A DNA stretch of 64,000 bases, from positions 18,729,501 through 18,793,500 of the forward strand of contig NC_089726.1 of NCBI RefSeq assembly GCF_035083965.1, given 5' to 3'. The notes beneath the pieces are model-generated. The model worked only from the letters and a program-made list of their open reading frames with translations. It did no database searches and was not told where the DNA came from. This document shows, piece by piece, positions 4,385 through 61,559 of this stretch. Position 1 is the stretch's first letter. Every line of letters begins with the position of its first letter. The DNA comes from Branchiostoma lanceolatum. Taxonomy: Eukaryota > Chordata > Leptocardii > Amphioxiformes > Branchiostomatidae. Position numbers and translations under genes: made by a program.

Positions 4385-4574
4385 GCCCATTCACGGTTGC
4401 CACTGCACAGCCACTACGCATGTGCAGTGTCAAAGGTGAAAGCCCCTGGCTCGTAAACAGTTCTCGTCTCGACATTGTCTAGATTTGCATACCAATGTCG
4501 AGACAGGTTTTGTTTACGTCTCAAGGGCCTTTACCTTTGACACTGCACATGCGTAGTGGCAACCGGGAATGGGC
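4385..4574. mobile_element. Small fold-back element, copy 1
   Basis: Arms start GCCCATTCACGGTTGCC and end with the complement, both leading into the conserved word TGCGTAGT / ACTACGCATGTGCAGTG. The centre holds a second inverted pair around CGAGACA and TGTCGAGAC. Related elements lie at 14662-14843 and, with different outer arms, at 29235-29407. A single arm remains at 39062-39110. No coding capacity. Confidence 0.75.
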
Positions 4575-4987
4575 TCATACGAATGGGCTGATTATTGCCG
4601 AAGGCAGTCCGATCAGATCTTGGGCCCAGTCAGAAACAGTCTCGATTTTGCACCGAAAGATCTGTTGAAAGATTACTGATTTTTTAAATACAAATTTCAG
4701 TACAGTCAAACCTGCCTAGGTGACCACCTTTTCAAGACGACCACATGGCCATGACGACCTCGACCGCCACGAATCGAGAGCGCAATCCCTGCACAAGACG
4801 ACCGCATCATTTTCAAGCATGTGGCGACATCGATCTATCCATAACATGTTTTAATATAAAACGTTTACAAAGATTTTTCAACTACGTACATGTATTGACA
4901 AATTTTAACATCATTGAGACACGGCCAATGTGAAGGCAAAGCGCAAAAAGTACTAAAATTAAAAACGTGCAGAAAAAGCTGCTTTAA

Positions 4988-13166: not shown

Positions 13167-13335
13167 ATCTTTGATCACTTATCTGAAAGATCAGCATTTG
13201 AAAAATTTAGTCACAATCAGTATTGTGGGAATAACTTACATGTACTTATAATACCTGTGTTATCGTAACAGTACATCAATGTTACAACATAAAGTAACAA
13301 TGTGCTAGCTAGCTGTCAGTATGAACAAAACACAT

Positions 13336-27800: not shown

Positions 27801-30800
27801 TGGTGTCCCTGATTTGAATTTCAATTAACCATAGCTCAGACATACACTGCGTTTTTTAAAGACATCTGTAAGTTTTAGGATTTGATTCATTAGAATTGCA
27901 ACGATACAATACATGTTTTGGGCACAGGCAGCTGTTGCTGTGTCGTGACCCACACATAACATAGCACGTATCTAAAATATACTGTATTTTGGCATTCTCT
28001 TCATTTAGCTTTAAACAGACATATGATAACGGTTTTTGGGAGGGTCAAAAGGTTTCCATATGTGCGAAAACACTCGAGGTTCGATTCACTGAAATGCAAA
28101 TAGCTAAGTAAGCCGGCGCCTCCATATTGGTGTCCCTATGACGTCACGTGAAAACACAATATCAATCAATGTGTGGAAGGTATTCGAGAATGAGCTGTCC
28201 ACATACAAATAACGTGACTCAGTTTAATGTCCCCTCCGTGTGATTAACCTTCCTTTCCCCTCCCTGTGTTCACTTCCCCAGGTGGTGTACTTCACCGCTA
28301 CCTTCCCGTATGTGATGCTGACTGTCCTGCTGATCCGGGGTGCCACACTAGATGGCGCTGCTGACGGGCTCTTCTTCTACCTGAACCCAGACTGGGAGAG
28401 ACTGAAAGACCACAAGGTGGGAAACTCACCTGTTCTCCCACCTGTACTCTCATCAGTCTCCGCACCTGTCCTCACACGTGTCTCCTCACCTGTCGCAAGA
28501 GGGGTGGCTAGGCTAGAAGAAGTAACTTTTAGCACCATCGACGGAACTATCCTATAAAAAGTAGATGTATTCTATATTTGACTTTTGAATTGATTTTAAT
28601 CATATATGTCAACTTTCAATGTCTAAAAGTTTAGATTTGAAGTTGACATTTGAATTGTTGAAGAGATTAATCAGTCATGTGTGATAACAGTAACAAGAAT
28701 ATTCATCAATCAGTGAAAAAGGTAACGAGATACGCACCTCCAAATTTTCGATGTCTACTGTTCATCTTGATCACGGAGTGACCTAGTCTTGCGAGAACAC
28801 GAGACTAGGACGAGACTTGTGATGTGATTTTAATCATATTTGTCAACTTTCAGTGTCTAAAAATTGAAATTTGAAGTGACGTTTGTGCTGTAGGTGTGGA
28901 TCGACGCAGGTACTCAGATCTTCTACTCCTTCGCCATCGGCTATGGCTGTATGACAGCTCTGGGCAGCTATAACAAGTTCCACAACGACTCCTACAAGTA
29001 GGTGGCTGCTGAAAAATATTTGTGTTGATCTCGTTGAATTGTTACTGTTGTAAGATAAAAGACTAATAAAAACAACACGGAAATTTCCTATTTGACATGT
29101 AGAATGGCTGTAACAATGCAACTCCTTTTGGTAGACAGTAATTGGGCTTGCCGGAACCAGCAACCGCCATGTTTTATATTAAACAACTTCATGACCTTTG
29201 GTTACACTTTTTATTCAGAACAGCACTTTCATAGGCTTTCGTAGATTCGAGTACGCATGTGCAGTGTCAACGTTGAAGGCCCATGAGACGTAAACAAAAC
29301 CCATCTGGGCATTGTCATGCAAATCGAGACAATGATCGAGACGACTGTTAACAAGCCATGAGCCTTCACCTTTGACACTGCACATGCGTACTCGAATCTA
29401 CGAAAGCGCTTATTGTTGTTGACTTGTTTTCCCCATCTCATATGGATAGCTTACACCAACAATGGCTCGTTGACATGAGGTTAAAGTTAAAGTTACTACT
29501 TAAGTTTTCCCCATCTGTAGACAGACCATCCTGATTGCCACAGTGAACGTCTTCACCAGTCTGTACTCGGGCCTGGTGGTCTTTTCTGTACTCGGGTTCA
29601 TGGCCAAGGAACAGGGGTTGGCTATCAAGGACGTGGCCGCATCAGGTACTGGAACTCGGTGGGATATTGCGTTAGGAGCGGTGTTTTAAGTTCACAATTG
29701 AAACAATGCAGCAGTACATTGGTACGAAATTCTACTACGCTCTACACAATATACCTTGTGGAGGCTCTGCTAAAACCGAGCTGACGTTATCACTATTGTG
29801 GGCGTGGCCTCTAACCAGCCAATCAGTGAATCGCCAATGCGATTTCTCAAGGTAAAGCCATTCTCTGATTAACTGAAAGCTGGTACGAGGCCACACCCAC
29901 AAAAGGGGAAATTTTTGCCCGGTTTAGCAGAGCCTCCCCTATGTATATTGTATAGGCCGCGGGCGAGGTTCTGTGTAGGAGAATGTGGCACGACATGTGG
30001 TGTGATGAGTTCGTATTGTGAGCTCCTCGCAAAAAAGGTAAACATAAAACCACCACGAATATTTCACATTTCGCAGTATCATTTTTGTAGTCACCAGAGT
30101 TTGTTTGTGTGGTACTGTTACCGTGACTGTAAAATATGTACGCTGATATACCTACAGTTTTTCCTGCAGTTATCTATCCCCCTCATTTCAAAATATCTGG
30201 AAAATAAGAAATGTTGTTAGTGTGGCTTAGTATAAAGCATTGTTAACGTTATCATGGCCTAGTAAAACAATCATTGTGGTGGGGTCCTGTGGTGGAACGG
30301 CATCGTGTTCGACCCAGATAAACCCAGCGGTCCCGGGTTTGAATCCCCCGAAGTCACCCTTGTGAAAAGGCACTTTACACGACTTTCCTAACTCTGCTCT
30401 GGTGTTTAAAAATGTATATGGGTATATTGTTCTCTGTACGTGTAACTGTTAAAATAAGTTATGAAAAACTTGAGTGCAGTGCCACATCATTCTTGTTTGT
30501 CCAAAAGCGAAGTAAAAACATAAATCATTACCTCCCTACAGGGCCGGGCCTGGTGTTCATCGCGTACCCACGGGCGCTGTCGCCAATGCCGCTCGCCCCG
30601 CTGTGGTCCTGTCTCTTCTTCTTCATGATCATTCTGGTCGGACTGGACAGTCAGGTAAAGGGAACTTCATTAACTCGCCAATATCTTCCCCAAGTCGGCC
30701 TTAGCGACTGTCAGTCGAGAGCATCCTTCCTTCAAGTCCTTTCTGAATACCACCTCATCGTCAAGTCTGTTTAGCCAATTCATGAAACAATGCCATGGAA

Positions 30801-39061: not shown

Positions 39062-39860
39062 GCACCTTTGACACTGCACATGCGTAGTGGCAACCGTGAA
39101 TGGGCTTATACGAATGGGCTGATTATTGCCGAAGGCAGTGCGATCAGATCTTGGGCCTAGTCAGAAACAGTCTCGATTTGTACCGGAAGATCTTTTGGGA
39201 GATTACTGCTTTTTGTTTACAAATTCCAGTACAGTCAAACCTGCCTAGGCGACCACCTTTTCAAGACAACCCCCTGGCCATGGCGACCGCGACTGGAGAG
39301 CGCAATTCCTGCAAATGACGACCGCATCATTTTCAAACATGTGGCGACATCGGATTTGGCTGTCTATGACCGAAAAGATCTTAAGACCTTGACGGACAAA
39401 AATTTATTGAATGACATCGATCTATCCATAAAATGTTTTGATATAAAATGTTTACAAAGATTTTTTAACTACATGTATTTACAAATTCTAACAATATTGA
39501 GGCAATGCCAAAGTGGAGGCAAACTTAAAAAGTACTGAAACTGAAAACTTCCAGAAACAGCTGCTTTGATAAAATCCATCAAATATTGATGATGAATATA
39601 ATAAAAACATAACATGTCTAGCGTTGACGAAGCATAACACTCATTGTAAATTCCTCAATTTATCCATGTTAGGGATGACACAAGTTATCAGAAGCTAATC
39701 TTACCGTACATGCACATCTATTCTGCATTCTGTGCTTCGGTATGAAAAGTACCTTAGCTGAAATTTGTACAGAGAAGTATTTTCATAAGACTTATAGTTA
39801 CTAGTTATACATTGATGAAAAATTACATGAATTACGTAAAGTTCTCCCGTTCCGATAGAA
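39062..39860. repeat. ZNF-cluster flank, partial copy 3
   Basis: It begins with a single arm of the small fold-back element (ACACTGCACATGCGTAGTGG), then follows copy 2 from ATGGGCTGATTATTGCCG to the block with ATGCACATCTATTCTGCATT. The more distal flank (minisatellite and MADS-proximal part) is absent on its left. It leads into the decayed tail of ZNF C. Confidence 0.75.
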
Positions 39861-40248: not shown

Positions 40249-41562
40249 TCAGATGTCTGCATATATGGAGGGAGCTATGAGCTGTCCTGTACCCACACTC
40301 CCCACACATGTAGGTTTCTCACCGGTGTGTTTAACTACTCGATGGTGGTCCAACTGGGATTTCTGGGCTGCAGAATAGTCACACAGGCCACACTTGTATG
40401 GTTTTGCTTCAATATGAGTTCCCATATGTTGGGATAAAGAAGACTTCTGAGCTGTTCTGTACCCACACTCTCCACACATGAAGGGTTTCTCACCAGTATG
40501 TTTAGCTAGATGTCTTTCCAAACTGGATTTCTGGGCTGCAGAATAGTCACACTGGTCACACTTGTAGGGTTTTTCTCCTGTATGTATTCTTATGTGTTCG
40601 GATGTGTGGGATTTTTGTGTTGTCCTGTACCCACACTCCCCGCACATGTAGGGTTTCTCACCAGTATGACTTAATAGATGGCTGTCCAAGTTGGATTTCT
40701 GGGCTGCAGAATAGTCACACTGGTCACACTTGTAGGATTTCTCTCCCGTATAAGTTCTCATATGTCGGGATAAGTTACTCCTAATAGCCGACCTGTACCC
40801 ACACTCCTCACACATGTAGGGGTTTTCATCAGTATGTGATACTACTTGATGGTAGTCCAAAGTGGATTCCTGGGCAGCAGAATAGTCACACTGGTCACAC
40901 TTGTAGGGTTTCTCTCCAGTATGAGTTCTCATACGTTGGGATAAGGCAGACATATGAGCTGTTCTGTACTCACACGCTCCGCACTTGTATGGTTTCTCTC
41001 CAGTATGAATTCTCATATGCTGGGATACGTGAGACTTCTTAGCAGACCTGTACCCACACTCCCCACACGTGAAGGGTTTTTCTCCTGTGTGAGATTTCAT
41101 GTGGTCAGATAAGTGAGACTTATATGCTGTCCTGTACCCACACTCCCCACACATGTGGGGTTTCTCAACAGTGTGTTTTACAACATGCCACTTCAAGGTA
41201 GATTTTTTACTGACAGAATAGTCACACTGGTCACACTTGTAGGGTTTTTCTCCAACATGAGTTCTCAAATGTTGGGATAACTGAGACCTCTGAGCTGCCC
41301 TGTACCCACACTCCCCACACATGAAGGGTTTCTCACTTGTGTGTTCTTGCTCTTGGCATCCATAGTTGGAGTCTGGACTTCTCAACAATCCACTTTGCAA
41401 TATGTTACATGCTCGTAAAGTTCTCTCGTTCCGATAGAAAAGGCCAGGAATATAATATATATATACAAATATATACAGAAGTTGTATAGCAGGAAAATAG
41501 CCCTGTATGCCTCTTCTATATGAGTTCTCATATATATATTGAAATAAGTCTGGTTGTCCCAT
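40249..41562 (-). CDS. C2H2 zinc-finger reading frame (ZNF C), 12 fingers, ancestral start lost
   Basis: The frame contains SPDSNYGCQEQEHTSEKP where paralogues have MADSNYGCQEQEHTSEKP. The ATG and acceptor region have been replaced at about 41375 by sequence that lies downstream of other ZNF copies. The first in-frame ATG upstream is at 41562 (MGQPDLFQYIYENS), within decayed finger sequence of the neighbouring gene. Twelve finger units follow. Two have lost a zinc ligand: ALSQRMRTH has Arg for the first His, and LSRHMRTYTGEKS has Tyr for the second. The last linker has the family's one-base deletion, giving a short tail CVGSVGTGQLIAPSIYADI. If expressed it would be a nuclear DNA-binding protein, but the missing start and promoter region suggest a fusion or a dying gene. 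Confidence 0.7.
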   Translation of the reverse strand: MGQPDLFQYIYENSYRRGIQGYFPAIQLLYIFVYIYYIPGLFYRNERTLRACNILQSGLLRSPDSNYGCQEQEHTSEKPFMCGECGYRAAQRSQLSQHLRTHVGEKPYKCDQCDYSVSKKSTLKWHVVKHTVEKPHMCGECGYRTAYKSHLSDHMKSHTGEKPFTCGECGYRSAKKSHVSQHMRIHTGEKPYKCGACEYRTAHMSALSQRMRTHTGEKPYKCDQCDYSAAQESTLDYHQVVSHTDENPYMCEECGYRSAIRSNLSRHMRTYTGEKSYKCDQCDYSAAQKSNLDSHLLSHTGEKPYMCGECGYRTTQKSHTSEHIRIHTGEKPYKCDQCDYSAAQKSSLERHLAKHTGEKPFMCGECGYRTAQKSSLSQHMGTHIEAKPYKCGLCDYSAAQKSQLDHHRVVKHTGEKPTCVGSVGTGQLIAPSIYADI

Positions 41563-41569
41563 ACCAACA

Positions 41570-41828
41570 CTCCTCACACATGCAGGGTTTGTTACCAAAA
41601 GTGAGTGCTTTACTCGATGGAAGTCAATAGCCGGTCTCTGCAGAACAGAGTAGCCACACAGGTCACAACTGTTGGGGTTTTCTTCTCCTATGAGTTCTCT
41701 TGTGTTTGGATAAGTCAAGCTTCTAAACTGTCCTATTCCCACACTCCCCACACATGGTTTTCGCACCAGTATGATTTCCTTGATGGCTGTCCAAGTTGGA
41801 TTTCTGGGATTCACAACAGTCACACAGG
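41570..41828 (-). pseudogene. Decayed C2H2 fingers downstream of ZNF C2
   Basis: Finger remnants on the minus strand include CDLCGYSVLQRPAIDFHRVKH and NPACVRSVG, the latter from a frame-shifted GEKPYMCGECG. Frame shifts separate the units. The stretch GCTTCTAAACTGTCCTATTC near 41720-41740 is the empty-site match for the CACTA-like insertion. Confidence 0.8.
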
Positions 41829-42461
41829 TCACACATGTGGAGTTTCTCGCCAATATAAGGTCTCAGATGTCTGCATAAATGGGGCTATGAGCTGTCCTGT
41901 ACCCACACTGCCCACACATGTAGGTTTCTCACCGGTGTGTTTTACTACTCGATGGTGATCCAACTGGGATTTCCGGGCTGCAGAAAAGTCACACTGGTCA
42001 CACTTGTAGGTTTTTTCTCCTGTATGACTTCTCATATGTTGGGATAAGTGACACTTCTGAACTGCCCTGTACCCACACTCCCCACACATGTAAGGTTTGT
42101 CACCAGTGTGATTTGCTCGATGTTGGTCCAAAACTGATTTCTGGGCTGCAGAATAGTCACACTGGTCACACTTGTAGGGTTTTTCTCCTGTATGAGTTCT
42201 CATATGTTTGGATAAAGTAGAGCTCTGAGCTGTCCTGAACCCACACTCTCCACACATGTAGGGTTTCTCACCAGTATGCGTTCTAGTGTGTCGAGCCAAG
42301 TGAGATTTCTTAGCAGTTCTGTACCCACACTCCCGACACAAGAAAGGTTTCTCACCTGTGTGAGATTTCATATGGTTGGTTAAGTTAGACTTTCTAGTTG
42401 CCCTGAACCCACACTCCTCACACATGAAGGGTTTCTCACCAGTCACGGTGGTCAAATTCAT
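41829..42461 (-). CDS. C2H2 zinc-finger protein (ZNF C2), 6 fingers, atypical N terminus
   Basis: Six complete C2H2 fingers with TGEKP linkers, FMCEECGFRATRKSNLTNH to YKCDQCDFSAARKSQLDHH, followed by the frame-shifted family tail ending LYWRETPHV. The only in-frame ATG gives MNLTTVTGEKPFMC; the frame above it (to 42557) opens with GTG. The conserved MADSNYGC start is absent: the upstream sequence joins unrelated DNA with TTCGAA and ACGCGCGTTCG words, so the 5' end was replaced. Fingers 2-4 resemble fingers 1-3 of ZNF B in order, which supports descent from the same unit. Probable DNA-binding protein if expressed; expression from this altered 5' end is unproven. Confidence 0.78.
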   Translation of the reverse strand: MNLTTVTGEKPFMCEECGFRATRKSNLTNHMKSHTGEKPFLCRECGYRTAKKSHLARHTRTHTGEKPYMCGECGFRTAQSSTLSKHMRTHTGEKPYKCDQCDYSAAQKSVLDQHRANHTGDKPYMCGECGYRAVQKCHLSQHMRSHTGEKTYKCDQCDFSAARKSQLDHHRVVKHTGEKPTCVGSVGTGQLIAPFMQTSETLYWRETPHV

Positions 42462-42743
42462 GCTCAGAAACTCCCATGTCCAGCCGAATTCGAACACTGT
42501 TCCACGAGGTTCGAAATGACGTAATCGAATCCGAACGCGCGTTCGATTCGGGGTCACCTGCGGTCATTGAAAGTGTTTACTGTAAACCCGCGCCGCCTGG
42601 CCCCTTTCCCCGCTTCAGAAAAAAAAAACTTTTGTCACAAATATTACCTGTTTTCTGGAGAGTATATCCATGCTGGCATTTTGTTGTTTACTGGCGTAAC
42701 TTTTTTGACATTGAAAATTAGAAGGCTTGTTTACGGCGGTGTC
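42462..42743. other. GC-rich spacer upstream of ZNF C2
   Basis: Contains CGCGCGTTCGATTCGG and a short A-run but no recognisable gene. It separates the ZNF C2 frame from the inverted-repeat element at 42744 and may include a promoter of unknown origin. Confidence 0.35.
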
Positions 42744-44596
42744 AATAGACCCCTTTCCAAATACCGCGGCCATTTTGAATCTAGCGCGAGCGCGCGTGGT
42801 TCGAGCTCGGGAAAGCGCGGGAAAAGTACACACCCGGTAAGTCCGAGCCAGCGGTAATGGCGTCCTCAATAGAAAGCAGCGTTGAGTCATCTTCGGCGGC
42901 GAGATGTTCTCCTCCTCGGTGAAATCCATCGATATATTTGCATGGCACAAGTAGATGATATTGTTGTGGACACTTGGACTCGATATCGGCCAGTAAAATT
43001 GTGAATTTCTGCTACTTTTCCACAGTTCCTGCCGGGATGTTGAGCGCGCGCTACAGTGATAGAATGCTAAATTGAATATGTTAACACCGCGTGCTTGTAG
43101 TTTCCCTAGTAATGTTAGCTTAAGTCGAGAAAAATCCCACAAAACATGTATACACTTTTCGGGCTGGGATCCTTATAGCTACTTAGATAGAAATATACAG
43201 AATTTTACCGGTCGTGACCGTAATTTTGGACGATGCCAACTTCGCCTGGGAAAACGCGCGTTGAGAGGGGGTCGTGTGTTCTGTCTAGCCTTTCTATCTT
43301 TTCTGTCTAGCTTTTCCTTTCTTTCTTGTTACATCTCTCTGCATGGCGTTATTTGACATTTCCGCTGAATGCAATCCAACAAAAAAAGACGTGAAAATGT
43401 AGGCTTGACCTTAAGGTCAGTTTGGTTAGGAATATAGCAGAATTTCGGCGGCTTATTTTGACGAGTTTTCTGAAATATCAAAACCTAAAGTACGTGAGTG
43501 AAGATGGCGTGTTTTCCCTTTGCGCCGTAATATCTTAATTTCCGTCGGATGATATTACAGAAACATGAAAATATGGGCTTGAGGGCTTTGCGAGTATAGA
43601 AATTTGACGGAACTTCGGTGGCTATTTTGACTTTGACAATATTTTAGTGCCAAGATTAGCTTGATGTAGTTCGTGAGTGAAAGCAGGGGGCGTGTTTCAT
43701 TACATCACTTTTCGCGGAAATATTTTAGATTTCCACAGGATGAAACCCCACAAAAAAAGGAAAAATATCGGCATGAGGTCCTTCAGTCCTCAAGTCAATA
43801 CTATTTAACGTTTTTCGGGTTCCATCCGGGCAACAGATATCTAAAATATTTCGGCGCAAAATGATTTAAAGAAACGTCAGATACAGTGGAAAACACACCT
43901 TCACTCACGTACTTGGAGTCCTCAAGACTAAATTCGTCAAAAAGCCGCCGGAATGCTGCCAAATTTGTACCCAAAAGGACATTGAACTCAAGCCTATATT
44001 TAACGTTTTGCAGGATTTCATTTGGCGGGAATATAAGATATTGCTGAGCGAAGTCGATGTAACGCTGCACAGAAAACACGCCCCTCCCTCAAACTAACGT
44101 AATTTCAAGATGATGTTGGCATTGTCACGACAGCCAAAAGGCTCAAGAGTTATATTCATACCAAAACGTAGCTATAAGGATCCCAGCCCGAAAAGTGTAT
44201 GTTTTGTGGGATTTTTCTCGACTTAAGCTAACATTACTAGGGAAACTACAAGTAGCGGTGTAAACATATTTAACATTCTATCGCTGTAGCGCGCGCTCAA
44301 CATCCCGGCAGGAACTGTGGAAAAGTAGCAGAAATTCACAATTTTACTGGCCGATATCGAGTCCAAGTGTCCACAACAATATCATCTACTTGTGCCATGC
44401 AAATATATCGATGGATTTCACCGAGGAGGAGAACATCTCGACGCCGAAGATGACTCAACGCTGCTTTCTATTGAGGACGCCATTACCGCTGGCTCGGACT
44501 TACCGGGTGTGTACTTTTCCCGCGCTTTCCCGAGCTCGAACCACGCGCTCTCGCGCTAGATTCAAAATGACCGCGGTATTTGGAAAGGGGTCTATT
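42744..44596. mobile_element. 1.85 kb element with long inverted arms (about 430-440 bp)
   Basis: Ends read AATAGACCCCTTTCCAAATA and its complement. The arms match to about 43180 on the left and from about 44160 on the right, including CGCGGCCATTTTGAATCTAG, GGTGAAATCCATCGATATAT and GGCTGGGATCCTTATAGCTA. The interior has diverged repeats around ACGTGAGTGAAG..GCGTGTTTT and GCGCCGTAATAT. No transposase is seen. The mirrored frames MDFTEEENIS in both arms follow from the inverted repeat and may be coincidental. No convincing target duplication was found, so the class is open. Confidence 0.75.
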
Positions 44597-44833
44597 AGCC
44601 CAACCCCCTATCCGTGCGGCATGACATGCATTTAAACATCGTAAAGGATCAGCTTCATAAAGAACCCTGCTTACCTTATTAGTGGCTCAAAATGACCGCA
44701 ACGGTTTCTGGGATTTTGAAAAAATGCCCTTGATTTTGAATTATGGGTAATTGAGTGCGAAAAATGTAAAAAATTGCAATTTTTTCACAGAGTTGTCGAT
44801 GTTAACTATACTTAGAATCAGAAATAAAATTTA
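44597..44833. other. Spacer before the satellite, nothing recognised
   Basis: AT-rich sequence with GAAAAAATGCCC and AAAAATTGC words. No ZNF sequence is found on this side of the satellite, so the array did not simply insert into an intact finger gene, or the other part was lost. Confidence 0.4.
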
Positions 44834-47197
44834 AGTATGGGGTGGGGGGCGTAACTTTGGTCAGCTATTACTCCCTAACCATGAATGAGAAAGTAAAGTG
44901 ATTTCATTTCCTCAAATACCCGCCAAGTGCCCTATCGTTTGAATGTAAAGTTTGAAAATTCTGATAAAGAGATTGAATTTTAGACCGGAGCACTGAATTG
45001 GTCTATAATGCTTTATAAGTATGGGGTGGGGGGCGTAACTTTGGTCAGCTATTACTCCCTAACCATGAATGAGAAAGTAAAGTGATTTCATTTCCTCAAA
45101 TATCCGCCAAGTGCCCTATCGTTTGAATGTAAAGTTTGAACATTCTGATAAAGAGATTGAATTTTAGACCGGAGCACTGAATTTGTCTATAATGCTTTAT
45201 AAGTATGATGTGGGGGCGTAACTTTGGTCAGCTATTACTCCCTAACCATGAATGAGAAAGTAAAGTGATTTCATTTCCTCAAATACCCGCCAAGTGCCCC
45301 ATCGTTTGAATGTAAAGTTTGAACATTCTGATAAAGAAATTGAATTTTAGACCGGAGCACTGAATTGGTCTATAATGCTTTATAAGTATGGGGTGGGGGG
45401 CGTAACTTTGGTCAGCTATTACTCCCTAACCATGAATGAGAAAGTAAAGTGATTTCATTTCCTCAAATACCCGCCAAGTGCCCTATCGTTTGAATGTTAA
45501 GTTTGAACATTCTGATAAAGAAATTGAATTTTAGACCGGAGCACTGAATTGGTCTATAATGCTTTATAAGTATGGGGTGGGGGCGTAACTTTGGTCAGCT
45601 ATTACTCCCTAACCATGAATGAGAAAGTAAAGTGATTTCATTTCCTCAAATACCCGCCAAGTGCCCTATCGTTTGAATGTAAAGTTTGAACATTCTGATA
45701 AAGAGATTGAATTTTAGACCGGAGCACTGAATTGGTCTATAATGCTTTATAAGTATGGGGTGGGGGGCGTAACTTTGGTCAGCTATTACTCCCTAACCAT
45801 GAATGAGAAAGTAAAGTGATTTCATTTCCTCAAATACCCGCCAAGTGCCCTATCGTTTGAATGTTAAGTTTGAACATTCTGATAAAGAAATTGAATTTTA
45901 GACCGGAGCACTGAATTGGTCTATAATGCTTTATAAGTATGGGGTGGGGGCGTAACTTTGGTCAGCTATTACTCCCTAACCATGAATGAGAAAGTAAAGT
46001 GATTTCATTTCCTCAAATACCCGCCAAGTGCCCTATCGTTTGAATGTAAAGTTTGAACATTCTGATAAAGAGATTGAATTTTAGACCGGAGCACTGAATT
46101 GGTCTATAATGCTTTATAAGTATGGGGTGGGGGCGTAACTTTGGTCAGCTATTACTCCCTAACCATGAATGAGAAAGTAACGTGATTTCATTTCCTCAAA
46201 TATCCGCCAAGTGCCCTATCGTTTGAATGTAAAGTTTGAACATTCTGATAAAGAGATTGAATTTTAGACCGGAGCACTGAATTGGTCTATAATGCTTTAT
46301 AAGTATGGGGTGGGGCGTAACTTTGGTCAGCTATTACTCCCTAACCATGAATGAGAAAGTAAAGTGATTTCATTTCCTCAAATACCCGCCAAGTGCCCTA
46401 TCGTTTGAATGTAAAGTTTGAACATTCTGATAAAGAAATTGAATTTTAGACCGGAGCACTGGATTGGTCTATAATGCTTTATAAGTATGGGGTGGGGCGT
46501 AACTTTGGTCAGCTATTACTCCCTAACCATGAATGAGAAAGTAAAGTGATTTCATTTCCTCAAATACCCGCCAAGTGCCCTATCGTTTGAATGTAAAGTT
46601 TGAACATTCTGATAAAGAGATTGAATTTTAGACCGGAGCACTGAATTGGTCTATAATGCTTTATAAGTATGGGGTGGGGCGTAACTTTGGTCAGCTATTA
46701 CTCCCTAACCATGAATGAGAAAGTAAAGTGATTTCATTTCCTCAAATACCCGCCAGGTGCCCTATCGTTTGAATGTAAAGTTTGAACATTCTGATAAAGA
46801 AATTGAATTTTAGACCGGAGCACTGAATTGGTCTATAATGCTTTATAAGTATGGGGTGGGAGCGTAACTTTGGTCAGCTATTACTCCCTAACCATGAATG
46901 AGAAAGTAAAGTGATTTCATTTCCTCAAATACCCGCCAAGTGCCCTATCGTTTGAATGTAAAGTTTGAACATTCTGACAAAGAGATTGAATTTTAGACCG
47001 GAGCACTGAATTGGTCTATAATGCTTTATAAGTATGGGGTGGGGGCGTAACTTTGGTCAGCTATTACTCCCTAACCATGAATGAGAAAGTAAAGTGATTT
47101 CATTTCCTCAAATACCCGCCAAGTGCCCTATCGTTTGAATGTAAAGTTTGAACATTCTGATAAAGAGATTGAATTTTAGACCGGAGCACTGAATTGG
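44834..47197. repeat. 183 bp satellite, 13 tandem copies
   Basis: CGTAACTTTGGTCAGCTATT recurs near 44850, 45034, 45217, 45401, 45584, 45768, 45951, 46134, 46316, 46498, 46680, 46863 and 47046, 182-184 bases apart. Copies are nearly identical; most length change is in the G run after AGTATGGGGTGGG. Copies 4-5 and 6-7 share a two-unit pattern (GTTAAG..AAATTG then GTAAAG..GAGATTG). The array ends abruptly in finger-coding sequence at about 47197. Confidence 0.95.
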
Positions 47198-47661
47198 CTA
47201 TTGTGTTTCAATCGATGGTTGTCCAAACTAGATCTGTCGCCTGCAGCATAGTCACACTGGTCACACTTGTAGGGTTTCTCTCCAGTATGAGTCCTCATGT
47301 GTATCGATAAGGCAGACCTGTGAGCTGTCCTGTACTCACACACTCCACACATGTAGGGTTTCTCGCCAGTATGAGTTCTCATGTGTCGGGATAATTGATA
47401 CCTCTGAGCTGCCCTGTACCCACACTCCTCACATATGTATGGTTTTTCACCCGTGTGTTTTAGGACATGCTTGTTCAAAGCAGATTTGTTACTGGCCGAA
47501 TAGTCACACTGATCACACTTGTAGGGTTTGTCTCCTGTATGATTTCTCATATGTTGGAATAAGTGGCCGCTATTAGCTGCCCTGTACCCACACTCCTCAC
47601 ACATGTAGGGTTTCTCACTGGTATGTTCTTGTTCATGGCATCCATTGTTGGAATCAGCCAT
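47176..47661 (-). CDS. C2H2 zinc-finger reading frame (ZNF D), 5 fingers, cut by the satellite
   Basis: It starts MADSNNGCHEQEHTSEKP (ATG at 47661; an in-frame ATG nine bases earlier gives MTAMADS) just after a conserved splice acceptor (CTTTCAG, minus strand, about 47673-47679). Five complete fingers follow: YMCEECGYRAANSGHLFQH to YKCDQCDYAAGDRSSLDNHRLKH. Where the next TGEKP linker should be, the frame enters the satellite and ends NSQFSAPV and stop. The last residues are therefore satellite-encoded. Paralogues have 6-14 fingers, so several are missing. The 5' end and acceptor are intact, so a truncated protein could still be made. Confidence 0.85.
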   Translation of the reverse strand: MADSNNGCHEQEHTSEKPYMCEECGYRAANSGHLFQHMRNHTGDKPYKCDQCDYSASNKSALNKHVLKHTGEKPYICEECGYRAAQRYQLSRHMRTHTGEKPYMCGVCEYRTAHRSALSIHMRTHTGEKPYKCDQCDYAAGDRSSLDNHRLKHNSQFSAPV

Positions 47662-47869
47662 AGCTGTCATGTCTGAAAGATTAGCATTTGATAAATTAGC
47701 CACGATCAGTATTATGGGAATCACTTAATTGTTTTTATCACACCTGTATTATCGTAATACAACAATGTTACAACAGAGAATAACAATGTGCTTGCTCGCT
47801 GTCAGTATGGCATGAATTTACCTTCTAGTTTCATGATAAACTGCAACAATTGAAGGTACATAATTTGAA

Positions 47870-48325
47870 GGTACAACTGAAGGGTGGCTGAGGAGTTTTG
47901 GGATGTTATTGAAAAAACCCTTTATAAACCTTCAGGTAGTTCTTTATAGCAAGGTTATAATTTATGCAAATTGGTATGACGTCATGATAACGTCATTAAG
48001 AGTTATAAGGCAACGCCCATTTTTAGAAAAAAGTCTCTCCTTGGCTTGTACTTCGATGTTTATCAATATTACTTTGCAGGAATGTACATGATAGTAATAC
48101 ATCAAGGATTTAGCGTGCCTATGTTTACATTTTGAAATGACGATTTTTAGCGAAATTTTATTTATTTATCAAAAATAAAAATTAAAAACCGCCAAAAATT
48201 ATCATTTCAAAATATATACATAGGCACGCATAATCCTTGATGTATAACTACCATGTACATTCCTGCAAAGTTGAAAAATGTTTATAAAGGGTTTTTTCAA
48301 TAACATGCCACCCTTCAGTTGTACC
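47870..48325. mobile_element. 456 bp fold-back MITE in the ZNF D flank
   Basis: The ends GGTACAACTGAAGGGTGGC and the complement pair. Inside, AAAAAACCCTTTATAAAC and GGAATGTACATGATAGTAAT also pair with complements near 48275 and 48255. TGAA on both sides may be the target duplication. The copies at 2860 and 13500 continue without it. No coding capacity. Confidence 0.72.
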
Positions 48326-50331: not shown

Positions 50332-50782
50332 GAAAGACGTGGCCGCTCCTATCCACCGACCTGAAGTTAGCAGCCCTTTCGGCAGCCGATTCCAGCAGCC
50401 GATTCAACAGCCCATTCCAGCAGCCGATTCAGCTATAGGAAAGCTAGCAGCTGATTCGGATGCACCGATACTCACTATATTTGAGTATTTATTTGATTCA
50501 TCGGGTTTTTCGCCGTGAATGTGGACAAAATAGATAAAAGATCTCTTCCGTGAAGACTCGGGTCTATACTTTGAAAGTCAGGTTATTTTAAATGGAAAAA
50601 AACACAGAAAAACAACAACAAATAACCATCAGAGCGACACCTACTGGAAAATGTGTGAATTGCAGTTAAACTTAAACGCCTGGTAGTTGTGACTACCACC
50701 TTTAAGAGAAACACAAGTGAACGTGTCCAAATTTACCTGCGGGATTTAATTCCCTCAAGAATTATTTAATTTACCTCCCACA

Positions 50783-53310
50783 GGGACACTAATTGACTAC
50801 AAGAGACTACGATATCAAGATTTCCGTTTTATAGCTACTGTACTGAACAGATGGCTTTTAGGTTATAAACTAAATTAGGCAGGTGAACTTGGAAGGCATA
50901 ATATGATAGCTAACAATCTAGTGCATCTTCTTAAAGTTTCAAAATTTACCTGCCAGATTTAATTTACCTCCCACAGGGACACTAATTGACTACAAGAGAC
51001 TACGATATCAAGATTTCCGTTTTATAGCTACTGTACTAAACAGATGGCTTTAAGCTAATAAACAAAATTAGGCAGGTAAACTTGAAAGGCATAATATGAT
51101 AGCTAACAATCTAGTGCATCTTCTAAAAGTTTCAAAATTTACCTGCCAGATTTAATTAACCTCCCACAGGGACACTAATTGACTACAAGAGACTACGATA
51201 TCAAGATTTCCGTTTTATAGCTACTGTACTGAACAGATGGCTTTTAGGTTATAAACTAAATTAGGCAGGTGAACTTGGAAGGCATAATATGATAGCTAAT
51301 AATCTAGTGCATCTTCTTAAAGTTTCAAAATTTACCTGCAAGATTTAATTAACCTCCCCCAGGGACACTAATTGTCTACAAGAGACTACGATCTCAACAT
51401 TTCCGCTTTATAGCTAATGTACTGAACAGATGGCTTTAAGCTAATAAACGAAATTAGGCAGGTAAACTTGGAAGGCATGATATGATAGCTCACAATCTAG
51501 TGCATCTTCTAAAAGTTTCAAAATGTACTTGCCGGATTTAATTAACCTCCCACAGGGACACTAATTGACTGCAAGAGACTACGATCTCAAGATTTCCGCT
51601 TTATAGCTAATGTACTGAACAGATGGCTTTAAGCTAATAAACGAAATTAGGCAGGTAAACTTGGAAGGCATGATATGATAGCTCACAATCTAGTGCATCT
51701 TCTAAAAGTTTCAAAATGTACTTGCCGTATTTAATTAACCTCCCACAGGGACACTAATTGACTGCAAGAGACTACGATCTCAAGATTTCCGCTTTATAGC
51801 TACTGTACTAAACAGATGGTTTTTAGTTAATAAACAAAATTAGGCAGGTGAACTTGGAAGGCATAATGTGATAGTTATCATTCTAGTGCATCTTCTAAAA
51901 GTTTCAAACTTTACCTGCCACATTTAATTAACCTCCCACAGGGACACTAATTGACTACAAAACACCGCGATCTCAACATTTCCGTCTTATAACTACTGTA
52001 CTAAACAGATGGCTTTAAGCTAATAAACGAAATTAGGCAGGTGAACTTGGAAGGCATAATGTGATAGCTTACAATCTAGTGCATCTTCTTAAAGTTTCAA
52101 AATTTACCTGCCAGATTTAATTTACGTCCCATAGGGACACTAATTGAGTACAAGAGACTATAATCTCAAGATTTCCGCTTTATAACTGCTGTACTGAACG
52201 GATGGCTTTTAGCTAATAAACGAAATTAGGCAGGTGATCTTGGAAGGCATAATATGATAGCTGGCAATCTAGTGCATCTTCTAAAAGTTTCGAAGTTTAC
52301 CTGCCAGATTTAATTAGCATCCTACAGGGACACTAATTGAGTACAAAACACCACGATCACAAGATTTCCGCTATAAAGCTACTGTACTAAACAGATGGCT
52401 TTAAGCTAATAAACAAAATTAGGCAGGTAAACTTGAAAGGCATAATATGATAGCTAACAATCTAGTGCATCTTCTAAAAGTTTCAAAATGTACTTGCCGT
52501 ATTTAATTAACCTCCCACAGGGACACTAATTGACTGCAAGAGACTACGATCTCAAGATTTCCGCTTTATAGCTACTGTACTAAACAGATGGCTTTTAGTT
52601 AATAAACGAAATTAGGCAGGTGAACTTGGAAGGCATAATGTGATAGTTATCATTCTAGTGCATCTTCTAAAAGTTTTAAACTTTACCTGCCACATTTAAT
52701 TAACCTCCCACAGGGACACTAATTGACTACAAAACACCGCGATCTCAACATTTCCGTCTTATAACTACTGTACTAAACAGATGGCTTTAAGCTAATAAAC
52801 GAAATTAGGCAGGTGAACTTGGAAGGCATAATGTGATAGCTTACAATCTAGTGCATCTTTTAAAAGTTTCAAACTTTACCTGCCAGATTTCATTAACCTC
52901 CCACAGGGACACAAATTGTCTACCAGAGACGATGATCTCAAGATTTCCGCTTTATAGCTAATGCACTGAACAGATGGCTTTAAGCTAATAAACGAAATTA
53001 GGCAGGTAAACTTGGAAGGCATGATATGATAGCTCACAATCTAGTGCATCTTCTAAAAGTTTCAAAATGTACTTGCCGTATTTAATTAACCTCCCACAGG
53101 GACACTAATTGACTGCAAGAGACTACGATCTCAAGATTTCCGCTTTATAGCTACTGTACTAAACAGATGGTTTTTAGTTAATAAACAAAATTAGGCAAGT
53201 GAACTTGGAAGGCATAATATGATAGATAACAATCTAGTGCATCATGTAAAAGTATCAAAATTTACCTGCCGTATCTAATTTACCTCCCGCAGGGACAATA
53301 ATTGAATACA
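50783..53310. repeat. Left array: 14 units of exactly 193 bp
   Basis: GGGACACTAATTGA-type words start at 50783, 50976, 51169, 51362, 51555, 51748, 51941, 52134, 52327, 52520, 52713, 52906, 53099 and 53292, all 193 bases apart. Each unit holds AACAGATGGCTTT, AATTAGGCAGGTGAACTT, AATCTAGTGCATCTTCT and ACCTGCCAGATTTAATT. Confidence 0.95.
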
Positions 53311-54910
53311 AAACAATTCAGGTGGGAAGTTTAAAATCCTACACTCTCTTGCTTCATTGGTTTCTCCATTGGGGCAATCAAGAACCAGCAGGTAAGATTT
53401 GAAACGTTTAAAAGACAGTTTAGGTCGTTTGCAATCAAAGTATACCTTTCAAGTTTATCTGTCTAATTTAGTTTAGTAACAGTACACCCACTTTACATTT
53501 TCAATTTAGGTGGGAAGTTTAAAATGCTACCCTCTCCTACTTCATTAGTGTCCCCATTGGGTGCAAATTAGATCCGGCAAGTAAGATTTGAAGTGTTTAA
53601 AAGACAGTTTAGGCTGTTATCAATCAAAGTAAACCTTTCAAGTTTGTCTGCCTAATTTAGTTTAGTAACAGTATACCCGCTATACATTTTCAATTTAGGC
53701 GGGAAGTTAAAAATCCTCTTAAACACTCTCTTAATCTTACTTCATTAGTGTCCCCATGGGGGGCTATTAAGATCCGGCAGGTACGTTAGATTTGAAACGT
53801 TTTAAAGTCACTTTAGGCTGTTGGTAATCAAAGTATACCTTTAGAATTAACCTGTCTAATTTAGTTTAGTAACAATATACCCGCTTTACATTTTCAACTG
53901 AGGCGGGAAGTTTAAAATCCTGCCCTCTCATATTTAATTAGTGTCCTCATGGGGGGCAAATTAAATCCGGCAGGCAAGATTTGAAACGTTTAAAAGACAG
54001 TTTATGCTGTTATGAATCAAAGTATACCTTTCATGTTTACCTGCCTAATGTAGTTAAGTAACATTATACCCGTTTTACATATCCAACTGAGGCGGGAAGT
54101 TTAAAATCCTACCCTCTCTTGCTTCATTAGTGTCGCCATTGGGGGAAATTGGATCCGGCAGGTAAGATTTGAAACGTTTCAAAGACAGTTCAGCTTGTTG
54201 GCAATTAAAGTATACCTTTCAAGTTTACCTGCCTAATTCAGTTTAGTAACAGTATACCCGATTTACATTTTCAATTGAGGCGGGAAGTTTAAAATCCTAC
54301 CCTCTCCTACTTCAATAGTGTCACCATGGGGGGTGGGGCAATTTAGATCCGGTAGGCAAATTTTAAACATTTAAAAGAGTTAATGTTTAGGTTGTTGGCA
54401 ATCAAAGTGTACTTTTAGAATTAACCTGCCTAATTTGCTTTAGTAACAGTATGCCCGCATTACATTTTCAAATGAGGCGGTAAGTTTACAATCCTACACT
54501 CTTCTACTTCATTAGTGTCGCCATGGGGGGAAATTAGATCCGGCAGGAAAGATTTGAAACTTTTCAAAGACAGTTTAGGCTGTTATCAATCAAAGTTTAC
54601 CTTTCACGTTTACCTAACTAATTTAGTTTAGTAACAGCATACCCGTTTTACATATTCAACTGAGGCGGGAAGTTTCAAATCATACACTCTCTTACTTCAC
54701 TACTGTCCCCATGTTGGGCAAATTAGATCCGGCAGGTAAGGTTTGAAACGTTTAAAAGACAGCTTAGCTTGTTGGCAATCAAATTATACCGTTGAAGTTT
54801 ACCTGCCTAATTTAGTTTAGTAACAGTATACCCGCTTTACATTTTGAATTGAGGCGGGAAGTTTAAAATTCTACCCACTCCTACTTCATTAGTGTCTCCA
54901 TGGGGGGAAA
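53311..54910. repeat. Central array: about 9 diverged units of 188-204 bp
   Basis: GGGAAGTTTAAAATCCTACC recurs near 53324, 53512, 53701, 53905, 54094, 54282, 54479, 54667 and 54856. Units align to the 193 bp family through CATTAGTGTCCCCATGGGG, CCGGCAGGTAAGATTTGAAA and GTTTACCTGCCTAATTTAG, and read in the same direction as the right array. One further unit of this family (about 54911-55075) is inverted. Confidence 0.85.
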
Positions 54911-55079
54911 TTAAATACTCAACTGAGGCAACTTTGATTGATAACAGCCTAAACTGTGTTTTAAACGTTTCAGATCTTACCTGCCGGATCTTAATAGCCC
55001 CCCATGGGGACACTAATGAAGTAAGAGAGTGTAGGATTTTAAACTTCCCGCCTAAATCTTGATATTGTAGTCAGTTGTA

Positions 55080-58000
55080 CCCAATTAGTGTCCCTGTTGG
55101 AGGTAAATTAAATGTGGCAGGTTAACTTTGAAACTTTTAGAAGATGCACTAGATTGTTAGCTATTATATTATGCCTTCCAAGTTCACCTGCCTAATTTAG
55201 TTTATTAGCTAAAAGCCATCTGTTCAGTACAGTAGCTATAAAGCGGAAATCATGAAATCGCAGTGTTTTGTATTCAATAAGTGTCCCTGTGGGAGGTAAA
55301 TCAAATCCGGCAGGTAACTTTTGAAACTTTTAGAAGATGCACTACATTGTTAGCTATCATATTATGCCTTCCAAGTTCACCTGCCTAATTTCGTTTATTA
55401 CCTAAAAGCCATCTGTTCAGTACAGTAGCTATATAGCGGAAATCTTGAGATCGTGGTGTTTTGTAGTCAATTATTGTCCCTGTGGGAGGTTAATTAGATC
55501 TGGCAGGTAAATTTTGAAACTTTCAGAAGATGCACTAGATTGTAAGCTATCACATTTTGCCTTCCAAGTTCACCTCCCTAATTTCGTTTATTAGCTAAAA
55601 GCCATCTGTTCAGTACATTAGCGATAAAGCGGAAATCTTGAGATCGTAGTCTCTTGTAGTCAATTAGTGTCCCTGTGGGAGGTAAATTAAATCTGGCAGG
55701 TAAACTTTGAAACTTATTGAAGATGCACTAGATTGTTTGCTTTTACATTATGCCTTCCAAGTTTACCTGCCTAATTTCGTTTATTAGCTAAAAGCCATCC
55801 GTTCAGTACAGTAGCTATAAGACGGAAATCTTGAGATGGTGGTCTCTTCTATTCAATTAGTGTCACTGTGGGAGGTAAATTAAATCTGGCAGGTAACTTT
55901 TGTAACTTTTACAAGATGCACTAGATTGTTAGCAATCTTATTATGCCTTCCAAGTTTACCTGCCTAATTTAGTTTATTAGCTAAAAGTCATCTGTTCAGT
56001 ACAGTAGCTATAAAATGGAAATCTTGAGTTCGTAGTCTCTGGTAGTGAATAAGTGTCCCTGTGGGAGCTTAATTAAATCCGGCAGGTAAATTTTAAGACT
56101 TTTAGAAGATGCACTAGATTGTTAGCTATCATATTATGCCTTCCAAGTTCACCTGCCTAATTTCGTTTATTAGCTTACGCCATCTGTTCAGTACAGTAGG
56201 TATAACACGGAAATCTTGAGTTCGTAGTCTCTTGTAGTCAATTAGTGTCCCTGTGGGAGGTTGATTAAATATGGCAGGTAAAGTTTGAAACTTTTAGAAG
56301 ATGCACTAGATTATTAGCTATCACATTATGCCTTTCCAAGTTCACCTGCCTAGTTTCGTTTATTAGCTCAAAGCGATCTGTTCAGTACATTAGCGATAAA
56401 GCGGAAATCTTTACATCGTAGTCTCTTGTAGTCAATTAGTGTCCCTGTGGGAGGTAAATTAAATGTGGCAGGTAAAGTTTGAAACTTTTAGAAGATGCAC
56501 TAGATTGTTAGCTATTATATTATGCCTTCAAAGTTCACCTGCCTAATATTGTTTATTAGCTAAAAGCCATCTGTTCATTACAGTAGCTTTAAAGCGGAAA
56601 TGTTGAGATCATGGTCTCTTGTAGTCAATTAGTATCCCTGTGGGAGGTTAATTAAATCTGACAGGTAAATTTTAAGACTTTAAGAAGATGCACTAGATTG
56701 TTAGCTATCACCTTATGCCTTCCAAGTTCACCTGCCTAATTTCGTTTATTAGCTAAAAGCCATCTGTTCAGTACAGTAGCTATAAGACGGAAATCGTGAG
56801 ATCGTGGTCTCTTCTAGTCAATTAGTGTCCCTGTGGGAGGAAAATTAAATCTGGCAGGTAAATTTTGAAACTTTTACAAGATGCACTAGATTGTTAGCTA
56901 TCATATTATGCCTTCCAAGTTCACCTGCCTAATTTCGTTTATTACCTGAAAGCCATCCATTCAGTACCGTAGTTATTAAGCGGAAATCTTGAGATCGTGG
57001 TCTCTTGTACTCAATTAGTGTCCCTGTGGGAGGTAAATTAAATCTGGCAGGTAACTTTTGAAACTATTACAAGATGTACTAGATTGTTAGCTATCATATT
57101 ATGCCTTCCAAGTTCACCTGCCTAATTTCGTTTATTAGCTAAAGCCATCTGTTAAGTACAGTAGTTATACTACGGAAATCTTGAGTTCGTAGTCTCTTGT
57201 AGTCAATTAGCGTCCCTGTGATAGGTTAATTAAATCTGGCAGGTAAATTTTGAAACTCTTAGAAGATGCACTAGATTGTTAGCTATCATATTATGCCTTC
57301 CAAATTTACCTGCCTAATTTTTTTATTAGCTTAAAGCCATCTGTCTAGTACAGTAGTTATTAAGCGGAAATCTTGAGATTATAGTCTCTTGTACTCAATT
57401 AGTGTCCCTGTGGGAGGTAAATTAAATCTGGCAGGTAACTTTTGAAACTCTTACAAGATGCACTAGATTGTTATCTATTATATTATGCCTTCCAAGTTTA
57501 CCTGCCTAATTTAGTTTATTAGCTAAAAGCCATCTGTTCAGTACAGTAGCTATAAAATGGAAATCTTGAGTTCGTAGTCTCTTTTAGTCAATAAGTGTCC
57601 CTGTGGGAGGTAAATTAAATCCGGCAGGTAACTTTTGAAACTTTTAGAAGATGCACTAGATTGTTAGCTATCATATTATGCCTTCCAAGATCACCTGCCT
57701 CATTTCGTTTATTACCTAAAAGCCATCTGTTCAGTACAGTAGCTATAAAGCGGAAATCTTGAGATCATGGTCTCTTGTAGTGAATTAGTGTCCCTGTGGG
57801 AGGTAAATTAAATCCGGCAGGTAAAGTTTGAAACTTTTAGAAGATGCACTAGATTGTTAGCTATCATAATATGCCTTCCAAGTTCACCTGCCTATTTTTG
57901 TTTATTAGCTAAAAGCAATCTGTTCAGTGCAGTAGTTATAAAGCGGAAATCTTGAGATCGCGGTCTCTTGTAGTCAATTAGCGTCCCTGTGGGAGGTAAA

Positions 58001-58570
58001 TTAAATCCGGCAGTAAAATTCTGAAACTTTTAGAAGATGCACTAGAATGTTAGCTATTATATTATGCCTTTCAAGTTTGCCTGCCTAAATTCGTTTATTG
58101 GCTTAAAGCCATCTGTTCAGTACAGTAGCTATAAGACGGAAATGTTGAGATCGTGGTGTTTTGTATTCAATTAGTGTCCCTTTGGGAGGTAAATTAAATC
58201 CGGCAAGTAAATTTTGAAACTTTTAAAAGATGCACTAGAATGTTAGCTATCATATTATGCCTTCTAAGTTCATTTGCCTAATTTCGTTTATTAGCTAAAG
58301 CCATCTGTTCAGTACAGTAGGTATCAGACCGAAATGTTGAAATCGTGGGTTTTTTTTATTCAATTAGTTTCCGTGTTACAGGTAAATTAAATCCGGCAGG
58401 TAAATTTTGAAACTTTTAGAAGATGCAATAGAATCACATTATGCCTTTCAAGTTCACCTGCCAAATTTCGTTTATTAGTTAAAAGCCATCCGTTCAGTGC
58501 AGTAGCTATAAAACGGAAGTCTTGATATCGTAGTCTCTTGTAGTCAATTAGTGTCCCTGTGGGAGGTTCA
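55080..58570. repeat. Right array: about 19 inverted units of about 193 bp
   Basis: The complement of the left-array unit repeats with the landmark AATTAGTGTCCCTGTGGGAG from about 55083 to 58563, mean spacing about 192 bases. It has five more units than the left array, so the arms are not equal in length. Confidence 0.92.
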
Positions 58571-58993
58571 TTAAATAATGTTTGAGGGAATTAAATCCCG
58601 CAGGCAAATTTGGACACGTTCACTTGTGTTTCTCTTAAAGGTGGTAGCCACAATTACCAGGCGTTTAAGTTTAACTGCAATTCACACATTTTCCAGTAGG
58701 TGTTGTCTTATGGTCATTTGTTGTTGTTTTTCTTTGTTTTTGCCCATTTAAAGTAACCTGACTTTCAAAGTATAGACCCGAGTCTTCACGGAAGAGATCT
58801 TATATCTATTTTGTCCACATTCACGGCGAAAAACCCGATGAATCAAATAAATAATCAAATATAGTGAGTATCGGTGCATCCGAATCAGATGCTAGCTTTC
58901 CTATAGCTGAATCGGCTGCTGGAATGGGCTGTTGAATGGGCTGCTGGAATCGGCTGCCGAAAGGGCTGCTAACTTCAGGTCGGTCTCCTATCC

Positions 58994-60216: not shown

Positions 60217-61470
60217 TCATTTTATCACCCGACCAGCGTGCTTTGCTTGATGGAAGTCCATTAACCATTTTTGTGTAGTAGAATAGTCGCATATGTCACA
60301 ATTGTAGGTTATTCTTCTCCTTGGATTGGGGTTATCGGTGTGATTCTTTTGATGACTCTTCAAACTGGATTTCTGGACTGCAGAATAGTCACACTGGTCA
60401 CACTTGTAGGGTTTCTCTCCGGTATGCGTTCTCATATGTTGGGTTAGGTGAGACTTCCTAGCACTTTGGTAACCACACTCCAAGCATGTGTAGGGTTTCA
60501 CACCGGTATGAGTCACCATATGTTGGGATAAAGCAGACTTCTGAGCTGCCCTATACCCACACTCCCCACACATGTAGGATTTCTCACCAGTGTGAGTTAC
60601 TCGATGGTTGTCCAAAGTAGATTTCAGTGCTGCAGAATAGTCACACTGGTCACACTTGTAGGGTTTCTCTCCAGTATGAGATCTCATATGTTGGGTTAAA
60701 GTAGACCTATGAGCTGTTCTGAACCCGCACTCCCCACACGCGAAGGGCTTCTCTTCACTATGAGTTGTCATATGTTTGGATAAGCTACATTTCAGTGCTG
60801 TAGAATAGTCACACTGATCACACTTGTAGGGTTTCTCTCCAGTATGCGTTCTCATATGTCTTGATAAAGCGGACCTCTGAGATGCCCTGTACCCACACTC
60901 TCCACACATGAAGGGTTTCTCACCAGTGTGAGTTACTCGATGGTTGTTCAAAGTAGATTTCAATGCTGCAGAATAGTCACACTGGTCACACTTGTAGGGT
61001 TTCTCTCCAGTATGAGATCTCGTATGTTGGGATAAGGTAAAACTATGAGCTGTTCTGTACCCACACTCCCCACACATGAAGGGTTTCTCACCAGTATGTT
61101 TAGTTAGATGTCTTTCCAAACTGGATTTCTGGGCTGCAGAATAGTCACACTGATCACACTTGAAGGTTTTTTCTCCTGTATGTATTCTCATGTGTTCGGA
61201 TAAGTGAGATTTTTGTGTTGTCCTGTACCCACACTCCCCGCACATGTAGGGCTTTTCACCAGTGTGTATTACACGATGGTTGTCCAAGTTGGATTTCTGG
61301 GCTGCAGAATAACCACACTGGTCGCACTTGTAGGGTTTTTCTCCGGTATGAGTTCTCATATGTTGGGACAATGTTGACCTTTGAGCTGCCCTGTACCCAC
61401 ACTCCCCACACATGTAGGGTTTCTCGGCAGTGTGTTTTGTCAGATGATTTCCACAGCTGGAATCGGCCAT
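60217..61470 (-). CDS. C2H2 zinc-finger protein (ZNF E), 14 fingers, best preserved copy
   Basis: Probable nuclear DNA-binding protein of 417 residues starting MADSSCGNHLTKHTAEKP. A splice acceptor (TTGTTTCAG on the minus strand, about 61492-61500) precedes the ATG, as in ZNF A, B and D, and the in-frame codons above give only a short leader. Fourteen fingers follow, all with intact C2H2 ligands. Fingers 1-10 alternate strictly between a CGECGYR type and a CDQCxYSxA type, as expected if the gene grew by two-finger steps. Finger 12 is YTCLECGYQSARKSHLTQH. Before the last finger the TGEKP linker is replaced by TDNPNPRRRIT, and finger 14 (YNCDICDYSTTQKWLMDFH) differs from the rest. It lacks the frame-shifted tail of the other copies. 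Target sites and partners are unknown; no effector domain is visible. Confidence 0.93.
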   Translation of the reverse strand: MADSSCGNHLTKHTAEKPYMCGECGYRAAQRSTLSQHMRTHTGEKPYKCDQCGYSAAQKSNLDNHRVIHTGEKPYMCGECGYRTTQKSHLSEHMRIHTGEKTFKCDQCDYSAAQKSSLERHLTKHTGEKPFMCGECGYRTAHSFTLSQHTRSHTGEKPYKCDQCDYSAALKSTLNNHRVTHTGEKPFMCGECGYRASQRSALSRHMRTHTGEKPYKCDQCDYSTALKCSLSKHMTTHSEEKPFACGECGFRTAHRSTLTQHMRSHTGEKPYKCDQCDYSAALKSTLDNHRVTHTGEKSYMCGECGYRAAQKSALSQHMVTHTGVKPYTCLECGYQSARKSHLTQHMRTHTGEKPYKCDQCDYSAVQKSSLKSHQKNHTDNPNPRRRITYNCDICDYSTTQKWLMDFHQAKHAGRVIK

Positions 61471-61559
61471 GTCTGGACTTTGTCCACTCTGAAACAAATT
61501 GAAAGTGAAGGAAATTTAGGAACCCATCATGGTCCTGTTTTCTCATCTTTACTTATTAC

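Follow-up and report, generated by a model that had tools for sequence, protein, structure and literature searches.

An element of 8,630 bp, at positions 50355-58984 of the window (the whole 64-kb stretch of DNA that was analysed, in which all positions are given), is best read as a single inserted non-autonomous fold-back (long-TIR) DNA transposon, together with turnover of its tandem arrays. We put the probability of this reading at roughly 0.8; it leaves the enzyme open. The identification as a fold-back DNA transposon, already made in a preliminary description of this DNA, is very well founded in the inverted tips, the target-site duplication, the long arms and the internal tandem repeats.

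Ends, arms and axis of the element

The tips, ACCGACCTGAAGTTAGCAGC, are 20 bases long and are exact inverted copies of each other (50355-50374 on the plus strand, 58965-58984 on the minus strand). When up to three mismatches were allowed, the tip sequence matched the whole window twice, at the two ends of the element, against 0.01 matches expected from shuffles. Both copies of the 9-bp duplication, CTCCTATCC, stop exactly where the tips begin, and the sequence beyond them differs between left and right. Among 55,330 window spans of 8,630 bp, one is flanked by identical 9-mers, namely the element itself; from base composition, such a match is expected by chance with a probability of 5e-6. The preliminary description had reported exact inverted tips and perfect 9-base duplications, and both were confirmed. 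The features of the element are as follows.

50346-50354, plus strand: left target-site duplication CTCCTATCC, same letters as 58985-58993, adjoining the tip
50355-50763, plus strand: left outer (flanking) domain, which carries the 20-base tip and, around 50382-50430, subterminal repeats of 12-13 bp
50720-50751, minus strand: 32-bp unit-like stretch at the inner edge of the left outer domain; local score 19.5 against a maximum of 14.0 in 300 shuffles; blastn 81% over 32 bp
50764-53313, minus strand: left array, 13 full 193-bp units (50788-53296) and fragments at both ends
53314-54909, plus strand: left inner array, 8.4 units of about 189 bp, reversed relative to the left 193-bp array
54910-54930, no strand: axis of the inverted structure, an asymmetric junction without a unique middle domain
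54931-55057, minus strand: right inner array, a stub equal to some 0.7 of one 189-bp unit that matches, in minus orientation, the first inner unit at 86%
55058-58576, plus strand: right array of eighteen 193-bp units (55090-58552, the final one being 184 bp long) and fragments
58577-58984, minus strand: right outer (flanking) domain, which carries the 20-base tip and, around 58909-58970, subterminal repeats
58985-58993, plus strand: right target-site duplication CTCCTATCC, identical to the left one, adjoining the tip

Read inward from each end, the element begins with some 410 bp of outer domain, continues as a 193-bp array and then passes into related, roughly 189-bp units in reversed orientation. 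The left half measures about 4.55 kb and the right about 4.05 kb, and the two meet without a unique middle. Both halves share one arm plan, since their 193/189 junctions can be aligned, short gaps aside. The outer domains, previously put at about 420 bp, agree in 401 of 420 aligned columns; the count of differences varies slightly with the aligner (19 in 420 columns, or 16 mismatches in 415 aligned bases). Of the differing columns, 5 fall in the outer 240 and 14 in the 180 that follow (Fisher p 0.008), which is a lead only, as the test on arm identity falling inward from the tip was chosen after the blocks had been seen.

Tandem units make up about 89% of the element. This agrees with the earlier picture of a body built almost entirely of 193-bp units, except that part of it consists of the 189-bp inner units. 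Tandem Repeats Finder (TRF) gave 13.2 copies of the 193-bp unit on the left and 18.3 on the right, numbers that depend on the assembly. The arrays are opposed, as had been described, with 13 and 18 full units plus fragments in place of the 14 and about 19 counted before. The place given to the diverged central array in the preliminary description needed correction: with 8.4 units on the plus strand against a minus-strand stub of 0.7, and the axis near 54910-54930, the inner array is mainly part of the left half, and the orientation of its units rules out a neutral central array. The best ungapped pair of arm segments spans 1,124 nt at 90% complementarity, so the sequence permits the very long hairpins proposed earlier, which may form in the cell.

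The element has two hallmarks of the fold-back class: its termini are long inverted arms that contain tandem repeats, and a target-site duplication lies at its exact ends. Its G+C content is 37%, against 41% for the window. No second copy was found in the 64-kb window, either by the tips (at most three mismatches) or by pieces of the element (E 1e-3). Exact scans of viral and of prokaryote contigs returned 0 tip matches each, both being weak tests in the wrong organisms, and Rfam gave 0 matches over the window at gathering scores.

Coding content and the proposed mobilizing enzyme

The earlier statement that the element has no coding frame stands. Its longest stop-to-stop frame has 77 codons, below the average of 106 in 100 mononucleotide shuffles (maximum 155). 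No transposase remnant was recognised in a Pfam scan of 11 of the 18 frames of at least 50 aa that overlap the element: the best E value among 10 of these frames was 0.053, with all hits below the family cut-offs, and the remaining frame matched 0 families at E 0.01. Movement would be supplied in trans. A transposase from another element would bind the tips and the outer domain, perhaps through the short subterminal repeats, and cut-and-paste would carry everything between the tips to a new site, leaving the 9-bp duplications. That enzyme would most likely be of Mutator (MULE) type, an assignment suggested by the 9-bp duplication and the compound ends and one that we favour with some reserve.

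Several published properties of these elements are in line with this proposal. In the parts of the sources covered, MULE target-site duplications are given as 8-11 bp (PMC6446971), and most fold-back elements seem to be members of the Mutator superfamily (PMC4079207). The 9-bp duplication falls within that range, which is not specific to MULEs, and the long TIRs expected of MULEs, which in many animal families carry short subterminal tandem repeats, are also present. The covered part of a study of Aedes aegypti reports subterminal repeats of 9-15 bp in 10 of 12 long-TIR MULE families and duplications of 8-9 bp in all 14 MULE families (PMC5225508); the present element resembles these long-TIR families in having, at each end, subterminal repeats of 12-13 bp. 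The earlier Mutator-like label is therefore consistent with the duplication, the long arms and the short subterminal tandem repeats, as a matter of fit only.

Individual families extend the comparison, again as far as the covered passages describe them. Tm1 of root-knot nematodes makes 9-bp duplications, as here (PMC3169594), and Muta1 of Aedes aegypti makes duplications of 8-9 bp (PMC5225508). In both, the TIRs are compound and contain tandem repeats some 12-15 bp long, comparable to the 12-13 bp repeats found here, and both have many non-autonomous copies (PMC3169594, PMC5225508). Unlike the present element, their TIR repeats are short, without arrays of units of about 190 bp in the parts covered, and each family has a MULE transposase, whereas none was recognised in the present copy (PMC3169594, PMC5225508). 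The tip repeats and Motif C of Tm1 both contain CGATTCAG, a resemblance noted by eye only. Rehavkus, as partly covered, shares the 9-bp duplication and has TIRs of 26-400 bp with a minisatellite before the 3' TIR; it encodes a transposase with a PHD finger, whereas this copy holds no such frame, and it is listed from insects and annelids only (PMC6446971).

The same architecture may instead have been moved by a non-Mutator enzyme, such as a P/Galileo-like one or that of another long-TIR family, which we regard as rather unlikely. According to the covered part of PMC3169594, fold-back elements probably arose on more than one occasion, with a P-type transposase in Galileo and a MULE one in Arabidopsis FARE; against this stands the 9-bp duplication, which fits the 8-11 bp of MULEs (PMC6446971, in the part covered). 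The 7-mers at the tips are unequal, and the match is one of 9 bp. Galileo, of the P superfamily, makes duplications of 7 bp, so its pattern is not the one found here. Drosophila FB-NOF bears comparison as well: FB elements have 9-bp duplications, and NOF is MULE-like.

Among the matches listed, Tetris of Drosophila virilis appears to be the nearest published architecture, a likeness of architecture alone. In the covered part of its description (PMC4079207), the arms of Tetris consist of an outer flanking domain followed by tandem units of about 220 bp, as the outer domain is followed here by 193-bp units. Tetris likewise lacks a conserved open frame (the longest here has 77 codons), makes duplications of 8-10 bp (here 9 bp) and varies in unit number, as the present element does. 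A stretch of 37 bp is common to its flanking domain and its unit, against 32 bp here, and units inside complete Tetris elements are 87% alike, against means of 88-90% here. In contrast, Tetris TIRs reach at most 1,735 bp, whereas the arms here extend over about 4-4.5 kb, and the present element lacks a unique middle domain and has a second, inverted array of related units (PMC4079207). These differences appear to be ones of degree and detail, and the element would belong to a known kind of fold-back, as described in flies.

Probable origin and turnover of the tandem units

The 189-bp and 193-bp units are homologous, their dimers aligning with a score of 98.5 against a maximum of 12 in 60 shuffles. 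Mean identity between 193-bp units is 0.901 within the left array, 0.884 within the right and 0.888 between left and right; the eight full inner units have a mean identity of 0.832. The left array contains near-copies, including L01/L03, L04/L05 and L06/L10 at 98% and L07/L11, L04/L12 and L05/L12 at 96%, and these pairs (96-98%) sit 1, 2, 4, 7 and 8 units apart. In the right array, unit pairs above 95% identity were absent.

On a tree of all 31 units, a single clade of the 13 left units, set apart from the 18 right ones, was rejected (p-AU 0.0009), and a separate origin of the two 193-bp arrays was rejected with it; one starred clade unites L07, L11, R16 and R17. Unit exchange between the left and right arms is possible. 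It is not established, because the left and right labels stay clustered on the tree, with 5 changes against a shuffled mean of about 10 and 0 of 500 shuffles as low. No pairing of units colinear from the tips stood out between the arms: mean identity is 0.887 at offset 0 and ranges from 0.871 to 0.904 across offsets -6 to 12. With no colinear signal in unit order, we rejected the idea that one arm, once complete, was duplicated cleanly and colinearly in inverted orientation. The right inner stub is closest to inner unit 3, with which it agrees in 118 of 127 aligned bases (15 gap letters), compared with 109 of 126 for inner unit 1, which adjoins the junction. We read the arms as having a common ancestry followed by turnover within each, as the unit sequences suggest.

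The 32-bp stretch common to the unit and the inner edge of the outer domain suggests how the arrays may have started, namely as a duplication at that edge. An origin at the stretch shared by flanking domain and unit has likewise been proposed for the Tetris array (PMC4079207, in the part covered). Unequal exchange would then have expanded and contracted the arrays, leaving the arms unlike in copy number. The unit itself offered no case for a structured sequence, since the 193-bp consensus, folded as a single strand, does not stand out from shuffles (z -1.15, with 23 of 200 shuffles folding as well). The internal dyad around GGCAGGT/ACCTGCC scored 11.5 in the 193-bp unit, within the range of shuffles (maximum of 300, 13.0), and was marginal in the 189-bp unit (13.5 against 12.5).

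The abundance of tandem units, at about 89% of the body, and the recent-looking near-copies in the left array would also be expected of a satellite array formed and inverted at this very site, its tips and 9-bp repeats being products of chance or by-products of repair. This explanation is very improbable: identical 9-mers lie directly at exact 20-base inverted tips, in the one span of 55,330 that has such flanks; no piece of the element is similar to the rest of the 64-kb window at E 1e-3; and the best match between the unit and the outer domain is a single 32-bp stretch. Tandem arrays assemble poorly and the copy numbers may be wrong, yet an assembly artefact, in which a contig joined to its own complement made the inverted structure, is scarcely credible given arms that are unlike at 19 of 420 outer columns, in unit number (13 against 18) and in the inner array (8.4 against 0.7 units), and given the differing sequence outside the two duplications.

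Genomic setting and significance

Zinc-finger frames of C2H2 type, at 47176-47724 and 60217-61515, lie on either side of the element, and both match Pfam zinc-finger families. These flanking zinc fingers presumably resemble those of Branchiostoma. Like three further frames with C2H2 zinc-finger arrays, at 1341-2543, 12345-13178 and 40249-42563, they are on the minus strand, and pieces of a sodium:neurotransmitter symporter occur in four frames between 15.7 and 36.2 kb (Pfam).

Other repeats are found in the window as well. Thirteen 183-bp units with 98% matches, more homogeneous than the arrays of the element, occupy 44832-47201 and end beside a zinc-finger frame, and further tandem arrays at 17062-17932 and 21763-22829 have units of 127, 186 and 69 bp. 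An inverted repeat at 42744-44596 encloses roughly 1 kb between arms of some 430 bp, which align with 422 identities, 7 mismatches and 10 gap letters, and a small nested one at 47899-48310, MITE-like in shape, has arm pairs of 93 nt and 34 nt. No duplication of 6-12 bp was found beside either of these, nor one flanking the inverted repeat at 48071-48271 with matching tips. A dispersed repeat some 200 bp long is represented by pieces at 4381-4578, 14658-14847, 29252-29390 and 39064-39109, which form three inverted pairs that are 86-93% alike (minus-strand matches only).

A 2019 survey, in the part covered, found limited evidence of MULEs in chordates and did not confirm an earlier report from the Florida lancelet (PMC6446971). 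The words "Mutator" and "MuDR" are absent from the covered passages of a paper on amphioxus transposable elements (PMC5802833). Among the matches listed in the open-licence literature, there was no amphioxus fold-back element with such arrays, though the family may have been published elsewhere. The broadest interpretation, that of a MULE-type fold-back family in a lancelet-like chordate whose whole body is a two-tier satellite and which spreads that satellite genome-wide by transposition, seems to us unlikely. Tetris units also grew into separate satellite arrays, and it is for Tetris, not for the present element, that satellite seeding has been published (PMC4079207, in the part covered). 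The ability to seed or spread tandem arrays that the preliminary description ascribed to the present element is thus a putative one.

Delimited by exact tips and a target duplication, the element is a clear case of mobile DNA consisting almost wholly of satellite-like units. Beyond Drosophila, it bears on whether satellites regularly originate from fold-back transposons. Should the host be a lancelet, the element's compound ends and its 9-bp duplication would also point the way to Mutator-type elements in a chordate.
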